A stretch of DNA of 64,000 nucleotides from Mycoplasmatota bacterium (GTDB lineage: Bacteria; Bacillota_I; Bacilli_A; Haloplasmatales; Haloplasmataceae): NCBI GenBank assembly GCA_018394295.1, contig CP074573.1, positions 62,001 through 126,000 of the forward strand, given 5' to 3'. This document shows, in pieces, positions 6,138 to 30,300 of this stretch. The translations under genes were made by a program, and so were the position numbers. The notes below the pieces were generated by a model, which searched no databases, had not been told where the DNA came from, and saw only the letters and a program-made list of their open reading frames with translations. Position 1 is the stretch's first letter, and every line of letters starts with the position of its first letter.

Positions 6138-7202
6138 ATGAAATCAGGAGTTTTTAATGCACAATACAAGTATATGATTTTAAAACATGCCTTGAAAGAA
6201 AACAATGTTTCTGAGACATGTAAGTTGTTTGGTATTTCAAGAACGACATTTTACAATTGGAGTAGGGCTTATCAAAAGAAGGGCATGATTGGACTAGAAA
6301 TCAAAGAGCCTAAAAAGCCTCAAATGTCAAATAAAGTGAATAAAACGGTTGAGCGTAAAATTTTATCATATGTAGGGAGACGCCCTGAAGATGGACCTAA
6401 AAGAATTTACTATGAGTTAAAAACAGAAGGGGTTAATATTGGGGTTTCAGGCATTTACAATGTCTTAAAGAGGCACAATCTGTCAAAGAAAACTCAACGA
6501 ATAGAATATTCGAAAAATAAAGTGTTTCATTTCAACAAGAAACAAAAAAATAAAAAGTTTATATCATGCTTTGAATACACAGAAGAAGCTTATCCAGGAT
6601 ATTTGGTTATTCAACGAGTTGATTATATAGGTAAATTTGAGGGAATTGGTAAAATATATCAATATAGTCTTTATGACACCTATTCAAAATGGGGTTCTGT
6701 TAAATTATATAATAAAAAACTAGATATAGATATTTGGTATTATTTTGAACTAAAACTTGTCTATTTGATGAAAACTTTAAATTTGAACATAAAGAATTTA
6801 ATCACTGAAAAAACAAGAGAGTTTGTACCTTTTTATGTTAAAAGCAACAAGTATAAGGAGATTTTGGAAAATCTTCACATCAACCATCGGTTCATTGAAC
6901 ATGAAGAAGATATTATTTTGGATGATATGGGTGACTTTAATAAGTTCTTAGTTCAAGAATTTTTTAATAAAATTCCTATGAATAAGAATCTCGACTCTTT
7001 TACTAAGGTTGAACACGCGCTTCACAAATTTTTAAGGCATTACAATTTCTCTAGAAAAATCTCTAGTGGATGTAATGTAGGTAAAGTACCGGCTAAAGTC
7101 ATCCTTGAAAGAGCTATTCATAATAATGTAGACTTAGATACATTACCACTTTGGATTTTGGCTTTAATTGATCTACTTAAACGAGGTGATCAAAATGATT
7201 AA
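6138..7202 (+). CDS. domesticated (catalytically dead) IS481-like transposase protein
   Basis: 354 residues. The start at 6138 is chosen because GGGAG at 6124-6128 is 9 bases upstream. An N-terminal helix-turn-helix (NVSETCKLFGISRTTFYNW) is followed by a second winged helix (GPKRIYYELKTEGVNIGVSG) and an RNase-H-like integrase domain resembling IS481 transposases (PGYLVIQRVDYIGKFEGIGKIYQYSLYDTYSKWG). The catalytic triad is not preserved: the usual TDNGxEF appears as TEKTREF, and the region that normally carries the last glutamate reads DDMGDFNKFLVQEFF. The protein keeps its full reading frame, so it is probably a DNA-binding protein under selection. It overlaps the FAD enzyme gene by 8 bases, implying coupled translation. 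Confidence 0.7.
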   Translation: MKSGVFNAQYKYMILKHALKENNVSETCKLFGISRTTFYNWSRAYQKKGMIGLEIKEPKKPQMSNKVNKTVERKILSYVGRRPEDGPKRIYYELKTEGVNIGVSGIYNVLKRHNLSKKTQRIEYSKNKVFHFNKKQKNKKFISCFEYTEEAYPGYLVIQRVDYIGKFEGIGKIYQYSLYDTYSKWGSVKLYNKKLDIDIWYYFELKLVYLMKTLNLNIKNLITEKTREFVPFYVKSNKYKEILENLHINHRFIEHEEDIILDDMGDFNKFLVQEFFNKIPMNKNLDSFTKVEHALHKFLRHYNFSRKISSGCNVGKVPAKVILERAIHNNVDLDTLPLWILALIDLLKRGDQND

Positions 7203-8448
7203 ACAAAACGATAGGGTGGCTATTATTGGTGGGGGACTTTCTGGACTTGTAATAGCAGAAGGTTTACAAAAAAAAGGGTATAAGAATGTTACTGTTTTTG
7301 AAAGAAGCAATCGGGTAGGCGGTAAATTGGATACGATTTGGTATAAAGGTAAATCTTATGAATTTGGTGCTAATTTTGGACTACCTCCTCAGAAACATTT
7401 AAAAACGCTTATGAAAGCATTCAATATCAAAATTGATGGACCTAGTTTATCCCGTGTTAATTATGATACAGATGGTAATAAAATTATGCAAATACCAAAA
7501 GAGGCATTGGGTGCTTTTGTCGAAGAACTCGATAGACTTCCAGATGTTTTGGCGAAGTATAAATCACTAGAAAAGGTTAATATTCAAAATGTAGAGGCTT
7601 CTTTGATGCTTCCTTTTTCAAAGTGGTGTGATATAAATCAGTTTAGTACTTTGAAAACAATTTATGCTCATTATTTCACCTGTTACGGCTTAGGGGATAT
7701 AGATGATGTACCAGCACTTTATGTTCTTAGGATATTGAATTATGATAATTTAATGTCTTTTATGGAGTTACCAGAATTCTGTACGTGGAAAAGGGGTGTT
7801 TCCTCGTTAATTGAATGCTTAACGCAGGAAATAAAAGATATTAGGTTGACACAAAACGTAAAAAAGATTTCTTTCTCAAAGGATGAGAAACTATATGTTC
7901 AAACGGAATTTGAAGTGCTTGAATTTGATAGAGTAGTCATTACCGCACCTTTAAATCAATTTTCTGATATTTATGGAGAAAATCATGAAATAAAACAATT
8001 TTTGAGTTGTTTAAAATATCAAGATTTTAACGTATATGCATTCATAGTGGATAAGGTCCCAAAAAGATGTGGGTGTGTGCTTGATAACTTGTCTATAAAA
8101 AAGAGAGGACATATCATATTCTGGAATTCTAGGTGGGATTCATGTGATGGTGAAGCGTTGATTATGGTTTATGCTTATGACCATCCTGAAAAATCTAAAT
8201 CAGAATCTTTAAAAATTATTGAAAGTGATTTATTGAAACTGGGTTTTCACAATCCAAGGCTCTATCAGTTTAAACGTTGGAAACAGTGTCCATATGTAGA
8301 AACCAGTGTTTTACAAAATGGCTTTTATGAAAAGCTGGAAGAGATGCAAGGGAGACACAATATATTTTTAGCGGGTGAAATCATGAGTACTGTGTTAATG
8401 GAAAACTGTATTCGATATTCAAACTATTTAATCAATAAGTATTTTTAA
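7195..8448 (+). CDS. FAD-dependent amine-oxidase-like oxidoreductase
   Basis: 417 residues from the ATG at 7195, which has GAGGTGA 5-6 bases upstream inside the preceding gene. The N-terminal Rossmann motif VAIIGGGLSGLVIAEGLQKKG and the second FAD contact ERSNRVGGKLDT are typical of the flavin-containing amine oxidase/protoporphyrinogen oxidase family. The C-terminal FAD-capping motif is present (NIFLAGEIMSTVLMENCIRYSNYLI), though less canonical. Length is normal for the family. The substrate is unknown and could be an amine, a carotenoid-type or another hydrophobic molecule. It is translationally coupled to the dead transposase-like protein, so both are likely needed together. Confidence 0.85.
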   Translation: MIKQNDRVAIIGGGLSGLVIAEGLQKKGYKNVTVFERSNRVGGKLDTIWYKGKSYEFGANFGLPPQKHLKTLMKAFNIKIDGPSLSRVNYDTDGNKIMQIPKEALGAFVEELDRLPDVLAKYKSLEKVNIQNVEASLMLPFSKWCDINQFSTLKTIYAHYFTCYGLGDIDDVPALYVLRILNYDNLMSFMELPEFCTWKRGVSSLIECLTQEIKDIRLTQNVKKISFSKDEKLYVQTEFEVLEFDRVVITAPLNQFSDIYGENHEIKQFLSCLKYQDFNVYAFIVDKVPKRCGCVLDNLSIKKRGHIIFWNSRWDSCDGEALIMVYAYDHPEKSKSESLKIIESDLLKLGFHNPRLYQFKRWKQCPYVETSVLQNGFYEKLEEMQGRHNIFLAGEIMSTVLMENCIRYSNYLINKYF

Positions 8449-8459
8449 TAAACTAAGCT

Positions 8460-8496
8460 AATGCTTGGATGATTGTGAATCATCCAAGCATTTTTT
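8460..8496 (+). terminator. intrinsic terminator of the FAD enzyme unit
   Basis: A perfect 15-bp stem (AATGCTTGGATGATT, GTG loop, complement) is followed by TTTT. Confidence 0.9.
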
Positions 8497-8636
8497 ACTT
8501 TCAAGTTCACTTTACACTTTATATTCATATATCTTCTAAATAAACAAGAAATATATAGACTATTTCATTTTTTATATGTAAATTATACTTAAAACATATT
8601 TTAAAAAAACCTATATATAGCATAATTATTCCTTAT

Positions 8637-8665
8637 TTGACAAAAGTACCTTTATTAAATATACT
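8637..8665 (+). promoter_or_regulatory. sigma-A promoter of the hypB operon
   Basis: TTGACA (8637-8642), a 17-base spacer, then TATACT (8660-8665). The start of transcription would be about 100 bases upstream of hypB. Confidence 0.8.
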
Positions 8666-8770: not shown

Positions 8771-9442
8771 ATGGATACATATAAAGTTCTTGAGATTAAG
8801 CAAAGTGTTTTTGAAGATAATGATCGACAAGCGGATTTACTTAGGAAAGAATTGAAAAAAGACAAGACCTTTTTATTGAATTTGATGTCATCACCAGGTT
8901 CTGGTAAAACAACAACTGTTTTAAGAACAATTGAGGTTTTAAAAGATGAAATGAGCATTGGAGTTTTAGAGGCAGATATTGATTCAGATGTAGACGCTCA
9001 TACTGTTGCACAGACTGGTGCAAAAGTAATCCAATTGCACACAGGCGGGATGTGTCATCTTGATTCAGATATGACCAAACAAGGTCTGTTGGGGCTAGGA
9101 ACAGAGGGAATTGACTTCGCTATTTTAGAAAATGTAGGGAATTTGGTATGTCCTGCTGAGTTTGATACTGGTGCATCAAAAAATGCGATGATTTTAAGTG
9201 TACCAGAGGGAGATGACAAGCCTTTAAAATATCCATTAATGTTTTCGATTGTTGATGTTTTATTAATTAATAAGATGGATGCAGTAGAATATTTCAATTT
9301 TGATCTAGAGGCAGTAAAAGAACGTGTAAAAAAATTGAATCCTAATATTAAAGTTATCCCAATTTCAGCGAAAACAGGTGAGGGAATTAATGAGTGGGCT
9401 GATTGGATTCGTACTGAAGTAAAAGAATGGAATAAAGAGTAG
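8771..9442 (+). CDS. hypB: HypB, nickel-delivery GTPase for hydrogenase maturation
   Basis: 223 residues. Walker A is SSPGSGKTT (~39-47). The SIMIBI-type motifs follow: EADIDSDVDA, HTGGMCHLD with the conserved Cys/His metal site at the G-domain, ENVGNLVCP, and the NKMD guanine motif. HypB hydrolyses GTP to place nickel in [NiFe]-enzyme active sites with HypA. There is no N-terminal His-rich nickel store. AGGAGG (8755-8760) fixes the start; the ATG at 8766 is out of frame. It heads an operon with the flavoprotein and hypA. No hypCDEF or hydrogenase subunits are in the window. Confidence 0.95.
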   Translation: MDTYKVLEIKQSVFEDNDRQADLLRKELKKDKTFLLNLMSSPGSGKTTTVLRTIEVLKDEMSIGVLEADIDSDVDAHTVAQTGAKVIQLHTGGMCHLDSDMTKQGLLGLGTEGIDFAILENVGNLVCPAEFDTGASKNAMILSVPEGDDKPLKYPLMFSIVDVLLINKMDAVEYFNFDLEAVKERVKKLNPNIKVIPISAKTGEGINEWADWIRTEVKEWNKE

Positions 9443-9469: not shown

Positions 9470-12148
9470 ATGGTAAAACAAAAGTTATTGGATCTTGCGA
9501 ATAAGATTAGTGGAACTAAACCTGGTTCAAAATTAGAAATTAAACCAGAACATCCTGAATATAGGATTTTAGTACCTGTTGTAACAGAAGAGATGGCAGA
9601 AGTAGCACTTTGTCTGGGATTACGTGAACCCATGAGTGCTGAAGAGATTGCTCCTTTATGTGGTAAACCTGTAGAGGAAACAGAGAAGCTTTTATGGGAG
9701 TTGGCAGTTGCTGGGGTTGCTTTTGTCAATAAAATTGATGGTGTTGATAAATACTGGCATGAAGTTTGGGTTCCTGGTCATATGGAAATGATGGTTAACA
9801 ACAAAGAAAATGTTGAAAAGTATCCAGAAATTGCGATATGCTTTGATGACTATGGAAGAAAAAAAGGACCGATGGCAGCTGGTAATATTCCAATGGGTGT
9901 AGGTCCGATGCGTGTTATCCCTATTGAACAATCCATTTCTGGTGAAACTAGAAGAGCCTCTTATGAGGAAGTTTCGAAATATCTCGATGAAAACACCATT
10001 TTTTCAGTTTCAGATTGTGCCTGCCGTACATCCAGAGAGGCTATGGGCGAAGGGTGCGGTCATTTGAAGGAAGATATGTGTATTCAGTTGGGACATGCGG
10101 CTGAGTACTATATCCGTACAGGTAGAGGTAGAGAGATTACCCGTGAAGAAGCCTATGATATTATTAAAAAAGCCGAAGAAAACGGACTGATGCATAATAT
10201 ACCGAATTTAGATGGTGCTGGAAAAACGCATGCTATTTGTAACTGTTGTGAATGTTCATGTTTTGCCTTAAGACTTGCTAATATGTGGACAAATCCTGAT
10301 ATGATACGTTCAAACTATGTTTCTCATGTTGATAAAGATAAATGTGTTGCTTGTGGAGAATGTGTTGAAAATTGTCCTACTAATGCATTGAAATTAGGTC
10401 AGAAACTTTGTACAAAAACACCGATTATAGAGAAGAAAAGAGATCTTCCTTATGATACAGAATGGGGTCCAGATAAGTGGAATCCTGATTATCGTATTAA
10501 CAAAAAAGTTGTTGTTGATACAGGGACAAGTCCATGTAAATCAGAATGTCCTGCCCATATAGGTATTCAGGGATACATCAAACTGGCTTCTCAGGGAAGA
10601 TATACTGAGGCACTTGAGCTTATAAAACATGAAAATCCGTTCCCAGCAGTATGTGGACGTGTCTGTCCAAGATATTGTGAATCAGCTTGTACAAGAAGTG
10701 ATATTGATGATCCAATTGCGATCGATGATATAAAGAAATTCATTGCTGAACAAGATTTGAATAAGGATGTTCGCTATGTACCTAAACATAGACATGAATA
10801 TGGAAAGAAAATTGCGGTTATTGGTGCAGGTCCTGCAGGACTTTCTTGTGCTTATTACTTAGCTATTGACGGTTATAAGGTTACAGTATTTGAAAAACAA
10901 AAGGTACTTGGTGGTATGTTGACACTTGGAATTCCATCATTTAGACTTGAAAAAGATGTAGTAAATGCAGAAATCGACATTTTAAGAGAATTAGGTGTTG
11001 AGTTTAAAACAGGTGTTGAAGTTGGAAAAGATGTTAGCTTAAAGGATTTAAGAAGTCAAGGATATGAAGCATTCTATCTTGCAATAGGTGCTGGGGCTGG
11101 TAGAAGTCTTGGTATTGAAGGAGAAGATGCTAAGGGCGTTATCACAGGTGTTGATTTCCTAAGAAATGTAAATCTTAACGAGACTTCAAAACTTGAAGGT
11201 TCAGTCGTTGTAATCGGTGGTGGTAATGTTGCTATCGACGTTGCAAGAACTGCTACAAGATTAAGTGTTTCAAAAGTTGAAATGTTCTGTCTTGAAAGTC
11301 GTGAGCAAATGCCTGCTCTTGAAGAAGAAATTGATGAAGCAATTGCAGAAGATATCACAATCAATAATTCTTGGGGACCAAAACGTATTATTACAGAAAA
11401 CGGTCGTGTTGTTGGTGTAGAATTCAACAAATGTATTTCTGTATTTGATGAGAATAAAAAGTTTAATCCTAAATTCGATGAAAATGAAACAAAGATAGTC
11501 AAAGCTGATAATGTTCTGATTTCAGTAGGTCAAGCAATGGATTGGGGTAACTTGATTGAGAATAGTAAGATAGAATTGAATCCTAACAAGACAATCAAAG
11601 CTGATTCGGTTACTTATCAAACTGGAGAGCCTGATGTATTTGCAGGAGGGGATGCTTTAACTGGTCCTAAGTTTGCAATCGACGCAATTGCTTTAGGTAA
11701 AGAAGGTGCAATTTCAATCCATCGTTATGTTCAACCGGGTCAAAGTTTAATTCTTGGTCGCATTAAGAGAGATTATCGTTCCTTTGATAAAGAAAATCTT
11801 GTTCTAGAAGGATATGATTGTATTCCAAGACAAAAAATAAGCCATAATGACGGAAATAAATCAAAAGAAACGTTCAAGGATTTACGTGGTACATTTACAG
11901 AAGAGCAAGTTAAGAAAGAAACTGACCGTTGCTTAGGTTGCGGGGCTACAGTTGTAGATGAATTCATGTGTGTAGGATGTGGATCCTGTACAACAAAATG
12001 TAAGTTTGATGCAATTTCACTTGTCAGAAAATATGATAAAGTTGGTGTAGAATTAAAAGATTTGAAACCTACAGTAGTTAAATATGTATTAAAACGTAAA
12101 GGGAAAATTGCAATTAAAAAGGTTAAAAATCTTTTTACAAGAAAGTAA
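9470..12148 (+). CDS. large Fe-S/FAD NAD(P)H oxidoreductase (GltD/NfnB-like)
   Basis: 892 residues, multidomain. Residues 1-~280 form an unusual N-terminal domain with Cys clusters (SDCACRTSREAMGEGCGH near 180, ICNCCECSC near 262). A [4Fe-4S] ferredoxin motif CVACGECVENCP lies near 291. A GltD-type Cys region follows (CKSECPAHIGIQGYI ... VCGRVCPRYCESAC). Then come an FAD-binding Rossmann motif (KIAVIGAGPAGLSCAYYLA, ~446), an NAD(P)-binding motif (VVVIGGGNVAIDVARTA, ~580), the FAD motif VFAGGDALTGP, and a C-terminal ferredoxin domain (CVGCGSCTTKC). It probably moves electrons between NAD(P)H and a ferredoxin-type partner. The gap to hypB is 27 bases and to hypA 40 bases, so one operon. The physiological substrate is unknown. 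Confidence 0.85.
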   Translation: MVKQKLLDLANKISGTKPGSKLEIKPEHPEYRILVPVVTEEMAEVALCLGLREPMSAEEIAPLCGKPVEETEKLLWELAVAGVAFVNKIDGVDKYWHEVWVPGHMEMMVNNKENVEKYPEIAICFDDYGRKKGPMAAGNIPMGVGPMRVIPIEQSISGETRRASYEEVSKYLDENTIFSVSDCACRTSREAMGEGCGHLKEDMCIQLGHAAEYYIRTGRGREITREEAYDIIKKAEENGLMHNIPNLDGAGKTHAICNCCECSCFALRLANMWTNPDMIRSNYVSHVDKDKCVACGECVENCPTNALKLGQKLCTKTPIIEKKRDLPYDTEWGPDKWNPDYRINKKVVVDTGTSPCKSECPAHIGIQGYIKLASQGRYTEALELIKHENPFPAVCGRVCPRYCESACTRSDIDDPIAIDDIKKFIAEQDLNKDVRYVPKHRHEYGKKIAVIGAGPAGLSCAYYLAIDGYKVTVFEKQKVLGGMLTLGIPSFRLEKDVVNAEIDILRELGVEFKTGVEVGKDVSLKDLRSQGYEAFYLAIGAGAGRSLGIEGEDAKGVITGVDFLRNVNLNETSKLEGSVVVIGGGNVAIDVARTATRLSVSKVEMFCLESREQMPALEEEIDEAIAEDITINNSWGPKRIITENGRVVGVEFNKCISVFDENKKFNPKFDENETKIVKADNVLISVGQAMDWGNLIENSKIELNPNKTIKADSVTYQTGEPDVFAGGDALTGPKFAIDAIALGKEGAISIHRYVQPGQSLILGRIKRDYRSFDKENLVLEGYDCIPRQKISHNDGNKSKETFKDLRGTFTEEQVKKETDRCLGCGATVVDEFMCVGCGSCTTKCKFDAISLVRKYDKVGVELKDLKPTVVKYVLKRKGKIAIKKVKNLFTRK

Positions 12149-12188: not shown

Positions 12189-12530
12189 TTGCATGAATTG
12201 GGAGTTGTAATTGAAGTAGTTAAGAATGTAGAGATTTTTGCGAAAAAAAATGATATAAAAAAAATCGACACATTAGTTTTGCAAATTGGTGAATTCTCAT
12301 CAATGGTTCCAAGATATGTTGAAGCCTGTTATCCAGCTGCAGTAGAAGGTACCTTATTGCAAGAGACCAAATTAAAAATTGAAATATTACCAGGTAATGC
12401 TATTTGCAGAAAGTGTAATAAAGTTTTCAATCTAATTGAGTATAAAAATAAGTGTCCAAAATGCGAAAGTGATGAATGGGAGTTATTATGTGGAAAAGAG
12501 TTTATGATTAAGGAAATCATTGCTTGCTAA
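12189..12530 (+). CDS. hypA: HypA nickel metallochaperone, TTG start
   Basis: 113 residues. HypA needs an N-terminal Met-His-Glu to bind nickel, and only the TTG at 12189 (TTG CAT GAA TTG) gives MHEL; AGGTAGGTGAG precedes it. The C-terminal half has the structural zinc site CRKCNKV...CPKCES. HypA hands nickel to the target enzyme together with HypB. It is the last gene of the hypB operon. Confidence 0.93.
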   Translation: MHELGVVIEVVKNVEIFAKKNDIKKIDTLVLQIGEFSSMVPRYVEACYPAAVEGTLLQETKLKIEILPGNAICRKCNKVFNLIEYKNKCPKCESDEWELLCGKEFMIKEIIAC

Positions 12531-27915: not shown

Positions 27916-29394
27916 TATACCTATATAGTAGACACGAAATAAAAAAGTGTTGGTTATGTAGGTATTTTATTTTATAATAGAGAAAGTTGAAGACGGGAGT
28001 AATAATAATGAGTAAAATAAGTATTAAAGAATATATTAAAGAACATCGTCAAGAATTGGAACAGAATCCTAATGTGCTTAAGGTAGGTAAGATACTTCAA
28101 TATACCCCTAAATTTAAGATTAAGGCTGTAGAGATGAGAAAACAAGGATATCCAATGAGGGAAATATTCGAACTAAATAAACTACCATTTAATAAAGATA
28201 AAAATGATATGTATGTACTAAAGTGGATAAAGCAATATGATGAACAAGGAAAAGAATCCTTCTATAAGAAAAATAGAGGTCGTAATAAAAATGGCAAATC
28301 AGGACGACCAAAGAAAGAAATAGAATTATCTAGTGATGAAAAAGTACTGATCCAAGAGAAATTAATAGAAGTCCTAAGAAAAGAAAATGAAGAATTAAAA
28401 AAAGAATACAGGCTAGGAAAGGAAGTGAAACAAAGCGGAAATGAGTTTAAAATTAAGCCTACTCAAGATATTTTCCGTTATATACATAAAATAAAAGATC
28501 AAGTTAAAATATCCATTGAGTTATTATGTAAATATTATGAAGTATCTCGATCAGGTTATTATAAGTGGGTTAAAACAATACCTAATAGACAAAAAAGAGA
28601 AGAACAGGATTACGCTGATTTTGTAGTTATAAAAAAAACATGGTTAAAACATAATAAGAAGCATGGATACTTAAGAATAAATATGGATTTAAAAAACGAT
28701 GAAGGCATTGTCATGAATCCTAAGAAGATTTATAGAAGATTTATAGACTAATGAAGAAATATGGAATACGAGCTGAAATACGTAAGGTTAGGGATTATGC
28801 AGGCAAATAAGGAACACAATTATTTTGAAAACAAATTAGATAGACAGTTTGATGTTAAAGAGCCAGATACTGTATTTGTGACCGACATAACTTATTTAAT
28901 CTATGGTAACCAAAGATATTATTTATCTGTCGTTAAAGAGCTTTGTACGAGAGAAATAGTGGCTTGGAAGCTATCTAGAGGATTAAGTTTAAATTTATCA
29001 CTTGAAATAATTGATCAACTTGTTAAAAAATACGGAAAGAAAAAGTTGAAAAACACCATGATTCATTCAGACCAAGGTGTTCATTATACAAATCCGTCAT
29101 ATGTAAATAAATTGAAAGAATTAAATATAATACAATCTATGTCTAGAAGAGGTAATTGCCTGGATAACGCTAAAATGGAAACATTCTTTGGTCATTTCAA
29201 AGATGAATGTGATTATCAACAGGCTAAAGACTTTTATGAGTTATATAAAATTGTTGATAACTATATGAGATATTATAACTGTAAGAGATATCAATGGACA
29301 TTAAATAAGATGGCCCCTACTCAATATAGAAACCATCTTAAAGCAGCTTAATGAAATTTTTACTTTTTTTATTTCTGTCTACTTGACAGGTGTA
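27916..29394 (+). mobile_element. IS3-family element, inactivated
   Basis: The left end TATACCTATATAGTAGACA (27916 on) matches the inverted right end, which reads TACACCTGTCAAGTAGACA on the other strand; both continue into GAAATAAAAAA-rich DNA. It is about 1.48 kb and holds one frameshifted transposase gene. No clean target duplication is visible. It is related to the copy at 56127 but not identical. Confidence 0.8.
28008..29351 (+). pseudogene. IS3-family transposase, two compensating frameshifts
   Basis: The frame from ATG 28008 encodes the helix-turn-helix/leucine-zipper OrfA-like part and the start of the OrfB part (CKYYEVSRSGYYKW), then stops at 28749-28751. The expected continuation (LMKKYGIRAEIRKVRDYAGK) lies in another frame from 28748 until a TAA near 28808. 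The integrase core then resumes in the original frame with an intact D-D-E set (FVTDITYL, MIHSDQGVHYTN, NAKMETFFGH). The homologous transposase at 56171 is a single frame, so this copy is dead unless two recodings occur. Confidence 0.8.
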
Positions 29395-29538: not shown

Positions 29539-30300
29539 TCATTTTTTATTAGGTTCAATACTTTCTATTTTATCTTTAGTTCTGTATGATCTACCGACAA
29601 TATTTATCACATGAGAATGGTGAAGTAATCGATCTAGAATGGCGTTAGCTAATACACTATCTCCAAATATTTCTCCCCATTTAGAGAGTGGTTTGTTTGT
29701 TGTTATAATTGTAGACTTTTTTTCATACCGTCTAGCGATTAATTGAAATAATAAATTAGATGATTCTGTATCAAGAGGTAAAAATCCAACTTCATCAATT
29801 ACTAATACCCTGTATTTGGTGAAAAATTTTAATCTTGTTTCTAATCTGTTTTCTAAATGTGCTCGTTTAAGTTGTAAAATTATATCGTTACAACTTATAA
29901 AATAAGTACTTTTTCTTGATTTAGCTGCTTCAATTCCTATTGACGTAGCTAAATGAGTTTTACCAACCCCTGGAGATCCGATTAGAAGAATATTTTCATT
30001 ATTCTCAATGAATTTTAAATATTTGAAATTTAATATTTCGTCTTTATTTATAGATGGTTGAAACCCAAAATCAAAATCATCTAATGTTTTAAGAAAGGGG
30101 AAATTAGCGACTTTAACACATGACGTTATTGCACGTTCTCGTTTAAAATTCATTTCATACTCTGTAAGTTCATATAACGAATCTACTATATTCTTTTCGC
30201 CTTTTGCGATAAGATTCAAATAAGAGTCGATATTGGCTCTAAAAAGGTTTAAATTTAGGGTTTCTAAGTTATTTAATAATTTATTATAATTATTTAACAT
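29539..30300 (-). CDS. istB: IstB-like ATPase of IS21
   Basis: 253 residues, AAA+ transposition helper. Walker A IGSPGVGKTHLA and Walker B VLVIDEVGFLP are intact, as is the arginine-finger region NAILDRLLHHSHVI. It helps IstA choose targets. GAGGAGT precedes the ATG; it follows istA with a 24-base gap. Confidence 0.95.
   Translation of the reverse strand: MLNNYNKLLNNLETLNLNLFRANIDSYLNLIAKGEKNIVDSLYELTEYEMNFKRERAITSCVKVANFPFLKTLDDFDFGFQPSINKDEILNFKYLKFIENNENILLIGSPGVGKTHLATSIGIEAAKSRKSTYFISCNDIILQLKRAHLENRLETRLKFFTKYRVLVIDEVGFLPLDTESSNLLFQLIARRYEKKSTIITTNKPLSKWGEIFGDSVLANAILDRLLHHSHVINIVGRSYRTKDKIESIEPNKK

Follow-up and report, generated by a model that had tools for sequence, protein, structure and literature searches.

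RNA-guided TldR proteins are among the closest described precedents for a transposon-encoded protein re-used in gene control. They are nuclease-dead transcription factors derived from TnpB (PMC13418256), and TnpAREP/RAYT proteins are domesticated transposases that are linked to specific DNA sequences and associated with high-copy REP repeats (PMC8266576). No description of a dead IS481-type regulator was found in the literature searched. Among metabolic systems, the part of the IsrA paper searched (PMC10134865) presents IsrA as a putative isoprene reductase of Acetobacterium wieringae and names HypA, HypB, DUF5692 and TetR regulators as neighbours of its homologues, with oleate hydratase in two species; that part of the text makes no mention of a transposase, an amine oxidase or an isomerase. 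Others have proposed that IsrA-like reductases hydrogenate conjugated C=C bonds.

The locus described here lies in a 64,000-nucleotide stretch of a Mycoplasmatota bacterium genome (contig CP074573.1), referred to below as the window, and opens with an overlapping gene pair, T and AO:

6138..7202, + strand: T, an IS481-derived, catalytically dead transposase-like protein of 354 amino acids (354 codons), predicted to bind DNA
7183..7188, + strand: GAGGTG, a plausible Shine-Dalgarno sequence of AO, within T
7195..8448, + strand: AO, an FAD enzyme of 417 amino acids from the group of PAI (polyunsaturated fatty acid isomerase)-like proteins
8460..8492, no strand assigned: bidirectional terminator-like hairpin downstream of AO, with a 15-bp stem

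T ends at 7202 and AO starts with the ATG at 7195, so the genes overlap by 8 bases; this overlap, and the Shine-Dalgarno sequence inside T, are as the initial annotation had them. That annotation also placed one promoter and one terminator around the pair: the terminator stands, but the candidate promoter upstream of T in the window is indistinguishable from chance. Five relatives of T at 67–73% identity were present in the genome collection and further ones came from whole-genome searches, showing the T-AO pair to be kept across many genera of Clostridia. A wider search, made after the site motif described below had been fixed, supplied a held-out set of 11 unused loci, eight of which carry T, from nine further genomes. 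AO lies directly downstream of T in all 37 T loci (29/29 in the first set and 8/8 held-out).

Our preferred reading, to which we give a probability of about 0.75 on comparative sequence evidence, is that T is a dead transposase that has kept its two helix-turn-helix (HTH) domains and would use paired sites as its operator to control an IsrA-like operon, with AO a PAI-like enzyme. Like TldR, T is a transposon protein without catalysis and a proposed transcription factor; unlike TldR, it belongs to the DDE type, carries HTH domains and has a candidate operator made of a fixed pair of DNA sites. It shares domestication and a tie to particular DNA sequences with TnpAREP/RAYT (PMC8266576), but its catalytic triad is lost and, in place of high-copy repeats, it has a single local site pair. 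New here is the inverted pair of 20-bp sites before the hypB-reductase operon. If the reading is true, this would be a clear bacterial example of a DDE transposase recruited as a local transcription factor whose operator is already identified; it would also link a fatty-acid-isomerase-like enzyme to IsrA-like reductases and offer testable genes by which conjugated or polyunsaturated compounds might be reduced anaerobically, fatty-acid biohydrogenation being one example. The unit first proposed was T with its flavoenzyme: the pairing holds, but the functional unit would reach into the downstream hypB-reductase-hypA operon, which carries the likely binding sites:

8771..9442, + strand: HypB-type nickel GTPase (TIGR00073, 245 bits)
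9470..12148, + strand: FeS/FAD, GltD-like reductase of 892 amino acids, IsrA-like by description
12189..12530, + strand: HypA-like nickel chaperone with a TTG start; relatives in 21/30 loci, the one in L055 matching PF01155

An FeS/FAD reductase of about 900 amino acids is found near T-AO in every T locus of the first set (29/29) and in 7/8 held-out loci; held-out L182 has DUF5692 only, without a reductase. The neighbours usually include HypB and often HypA and the membrane protein DUF5692. Genes usually all point the same way in T-AO subfamily A, and in most of subfamily B T-AO is divergent from hypB-reductase. Compared by description only with IsrA VUZ27132.1 and the IsrA-like reductases of clade 9, the window operon matches the published account of putative IsrA operons, as far as that account was covered (PMC10134865), in its FAD/FeS GltD-like oxidoreductase of about 900 amino acids and in HypA, HypB and DUF5692, with TetR in some relatives; unlike the isr operon of the same description, no ferredoxin or second HypA was found next to it. 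Besides its T-AO copy, Alkaliphilus peptidifermentans (G399) has a second IsrA-like gene beside a TetR-like gene (L112).

AO was first annotated as amine-oxidase-like. Pfam does assign it to Amino_oxidase, but its sequence is nearest to PAI rather than to amine oxidases: the best solved relative is 2b9w (full-length, E = 1e-73), which we take to be the Propionibacterium acnes polyunsaturated fatty acid isomerase and whose record title reads putative aminooxidase. Arg88, Phe168 and Phe193 are presumably pocket residues of PAI. AO has Arg (26/28) or Lys (2/28) at the first of these positions, Tyr or Phe at the second (28/28) and Phe at the third (26/28); the window protein has R87 and F189 at pocket positions and Tyr at that of Phe168. 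Subfamily A AO proteins retain the PAI site residues and the FAD motifs. Those of subfamily B keep the pocket residues but, unlike PAI, are missing the Glu of the C-terminal AGE motif, and AO as a whole differs from PAI in being paired with a dead transposase.

For comparison we used twenty T-less loci with close reductases. Their operons mostly adjoin or lie near a TetR, LysR, AraC or XRE-cupin regulator, and L100–L103 have no adjacent regulator. AO tracks T and not the reductase, because it is absent from all of these T-less close operons (0/20). The T and AO trees are congruent, and the reductase tree is discordant with both. Together with the unbroken adjacency of T and AO, and with subfamily B proteins that have the pocket residues without the C-terminal Glu, this gives some weight to a two-part sensor, in which AO, instead of catalysing a pathway step, would be a flavoprotein that senses a ligand or redox state and gates T; its absence from T-less close operons is at least as compatible with a sensory role as with one in the pathway. 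Against such a sensor, a T-free operon in L163 (4759–10118) combines a PAI-like gene with those for HypB, HypA and an IsrA-like reductase, an independent link between the PAI-like and IsrA-like enzyme types. At L164, L165 and L166, PAI-like genes adjoin a second FAD oxidoreductase gene and, as judged by eye, apparent acyl-ligase and thioesterase genes, neighbours that suggest a fatty-acid context, and the site residues and FAD motifs retained in subfamily A also speak for an enzyme. We hold the sensor as a tentative alternative to AO as an enzyme of the pathway. On these sequence comparisons AO probably acts on the same unsaturated substrate class as the reductase, for example forming a conjugated diene, and it may be a pathway enzyme, a sensor for T, or both.

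The operon is preceded by an inverted pair of 20-bp sites of the form ACTTT-N8-GTTTACA ... TGTAAAC-N8-AAAGT, which in the window lie after the terminator (8460–8492) and before the hypB promoter (8637):

8497..8516, + strand: distal candidate operator half-site, ACTTTCAAGTTCACTTTACA
8577..8596, − strand: proximal candidate operator half-site, TGTTTTAAGTATAATTTACA (read on the − strand), inverted and 60 bp from the distal one
8637..8665, + strand: promoter TTGACA-17-TATACT of the hypB operon, its −35 box starting 41 bp past the proximal half-site

The site pair is present in 27/29 T loci and 0/20 T-less loci; the motif was first spotted by eye in intergenic regions of these same loci, and only the eight held-out T loci are independent of it. 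With three mismatches or fewer, the pair was found in 21/29 T loci, in none of the T-less loci (0/20), in neither of two T-remnant loci (L054 and L068, from genomes outside those matching the reductase) and in one of 870 shuffled loci. Scrambled motif cores gave a pair in at most 2/29 T loci. A clear pair is absent from L048 and L062, and L007, L009, L051 and L052 have one at the expected place with five mismatches, as many as some pairs in shuffled sequence show. Across each T locus as a whole, the best-scoring pair lies where the (DUF5692-)hypB-reductase operon begins; this holds even for L049, where T-AO lies downstream of the reductase and the pair is still upstream of hypB. In the window genome these two sites are the only exact matches to the window-derived pattern; no further perfect sites were found there, and sites with two mismatches occur at chance level.

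Spacing within the pair is mostly 60–62 bp, and otherwise 49, 64, 70, 72, 73, 90, 103 or 104 bp. Outside the 60–64 class the spacings give a suggestive sign of helical phasing (p = 0.002 by permutation of 7 clade-level values; an earlier set without an 82-bp case gave p of about 0.07). In 17/18 subfamily A loci the −35 box begins 40–44 bp from the proximal half-site. Promoters of subfamily B are weak and less evenly placed, with several −35 boxes beginning at 34–35 bp. Descent of the operator halves from IS481 ends was considered and set aside: some reference ends start with TGTA and have ACTTGA within them, but in a different register, and the likeness may be chance. One lone, perfect operator-like site (L061:1399–1418) lies away from the reductase operon, beside a predicted chemoreceptor-like gene, and is a possible second target of T.

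In the held-out set, all eight T loci have a dead T (8/8), AO downstream and a site pair at the operon start with 0–4 mismatches (8/8; three or fewer in seven), and both AO and the pair are missing from all three loci (3/3) whose IS481 transposase is intact. In leave-one-out classification, operator type matched T type in 26 of 27 calls, among them two natural swaps that show the operator following the protein: L050, where an A-type T-AO sits on a B-clade reductase, and L055, where a B-type T-AO sits on a reductase outside the B clade, each with the operator of its T type. Binding of the sites by another regulator, with T in some other DNA-related role, would suit a protein whose binding we infer and whose fold beyond the HTH domains is poorly modelled; that alternative is quite unlikely, given sites that are missing from T-less and T-remnant loci and that, in both swaps, are of the type belonging to the T subfamily present. 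Two genomes, G790 (L178/L188) and G751 (L180/L187), carry both A and B T-AO modules, each with its own operator type.

Descent of T from IS481 is clear. Like IS481-family transposases (NF033577; for example ISAs19), it has two HTH domains, is collinear over most of the protein and shares the GVGRIYQ...DTYSK region, at 17–27% identity to four IS481 references. It scores 128.9 bits against the NCBIfam IS481 model, below the 224-bit equivalog cut-off, and also matches HTH_28/23/29 and HTH_32, with the HTH domains N-terminal. It differs from those transposases in its sub-cut-off score, an extra conserved C-terminal LPLW segment, a fixed genomic partner and a replaced triad, read from an alignment of T proteins with four intact IS481 transposases in which the catalytic positions are D, D and E (4/4):

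6615..6617, + strand: codon of R160, position of the first catalytic Asp (D in 4/4 references; R in 12 and K in 1 of subfamily A; W in 15 of subfamily B)
6807..6809, + strand: codon of E224, position of the second catalytic Asp (Asp in none of 28 T proteins)
6930..6932, + strand: codon of G265, position of the catalytic Glu, from the alignment with IS481 references

Across subfamily A (13 proteins) the three positions hold R/K, E/A/Q/K/I/C and G/S/D/N/K; all 15 proteins of subfamily B have W at the first position, 12 have F at the second and one has E at the third. The triad is thus intact in none of 36 full-length T proteins (28 from the first set and eight held-out), a larger loss than the change at the second and third positions reported in the initial annotation, since the first (R160) is also replaced. 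Homologues with an intact triad, or a pair unconserved elsewhere, had been named as grounds for doubt; neither was found.

T evolves with an omega of 0.05–0.30, close to that of AO and indicating purifying selection. Conservation between subfamilies A and B is higher in the HTH regions (36–37%) than in the catalytic-domain region (16%). The 3.29-Mb genome from which the window comes has one copy of T, and no terminal inverted repeats were found flanking that copy, unlike several intact IS481 elements. An ordinary or decaying IS481 copy, by chance beside an unrelated gene, would account for the evident descent but is very hard to square with a triad lost throughout, open frames under purifying selection, a single copy without terminal repeats and a conserved genomic context. 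The original proposal of a catalytically dead, domesticated transposase acting as a DNA-binding partner has gained in strength: domestication, with T as a local transcription regulator, is well supported by comparative evidence, and the predicted DNA-binding role is very probable. AlphaFold models from six-row alignments had a mean pLDDT of 50 for T, confident only in the two HTH domains, and of 52 for AO; poor models outside the HTH domains therefore lend no support to an RNase-H fold, oligomerisation or a T-AO complex. Foldseek with the T model gave weak matches to TnsB and IstA, and a PADLOC search gave no convincing defence family.

On the preferred reading, T would have lost catalysis and kept the DNA-binding domains of an IS481-family transposase, and the two inverted sites upstream of the hypB-reductase-hypA promoter would be its operator. 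A T oligomer would bridge the two sites, much as a transposase brings together the two ends of its element, and the bound pair would control the hypB promoter from a fixed distance, setting expression of the IsrA-like FeS/FAD reductase and the nickel chaperones. Looping is proposed because the sites are paired and inverted, with spacings of 60–62 bp or near whole helical turns from that. Activation is slightly favoured over repression, because in subfamily A the sites stay clear of the core promoter, on its upstream side. The fullest version—in which a looping regulator derived from a DDE transposase, with a PAI-like flavoprotein sensing ligand or redox state, controls an operon for the nickel-dependent hydrogenation of dienes in Clostridia—we regard as doubtful.

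By eye, the window also holds an IS3-like transposase at 27987–29351, split into open reading frames at 27987–28751 and 28761–29351, the second with intact-looking DDE motifs, and, at 29539–30300, a gene that may encode the IstB-like ATPase of an IS21-type element.
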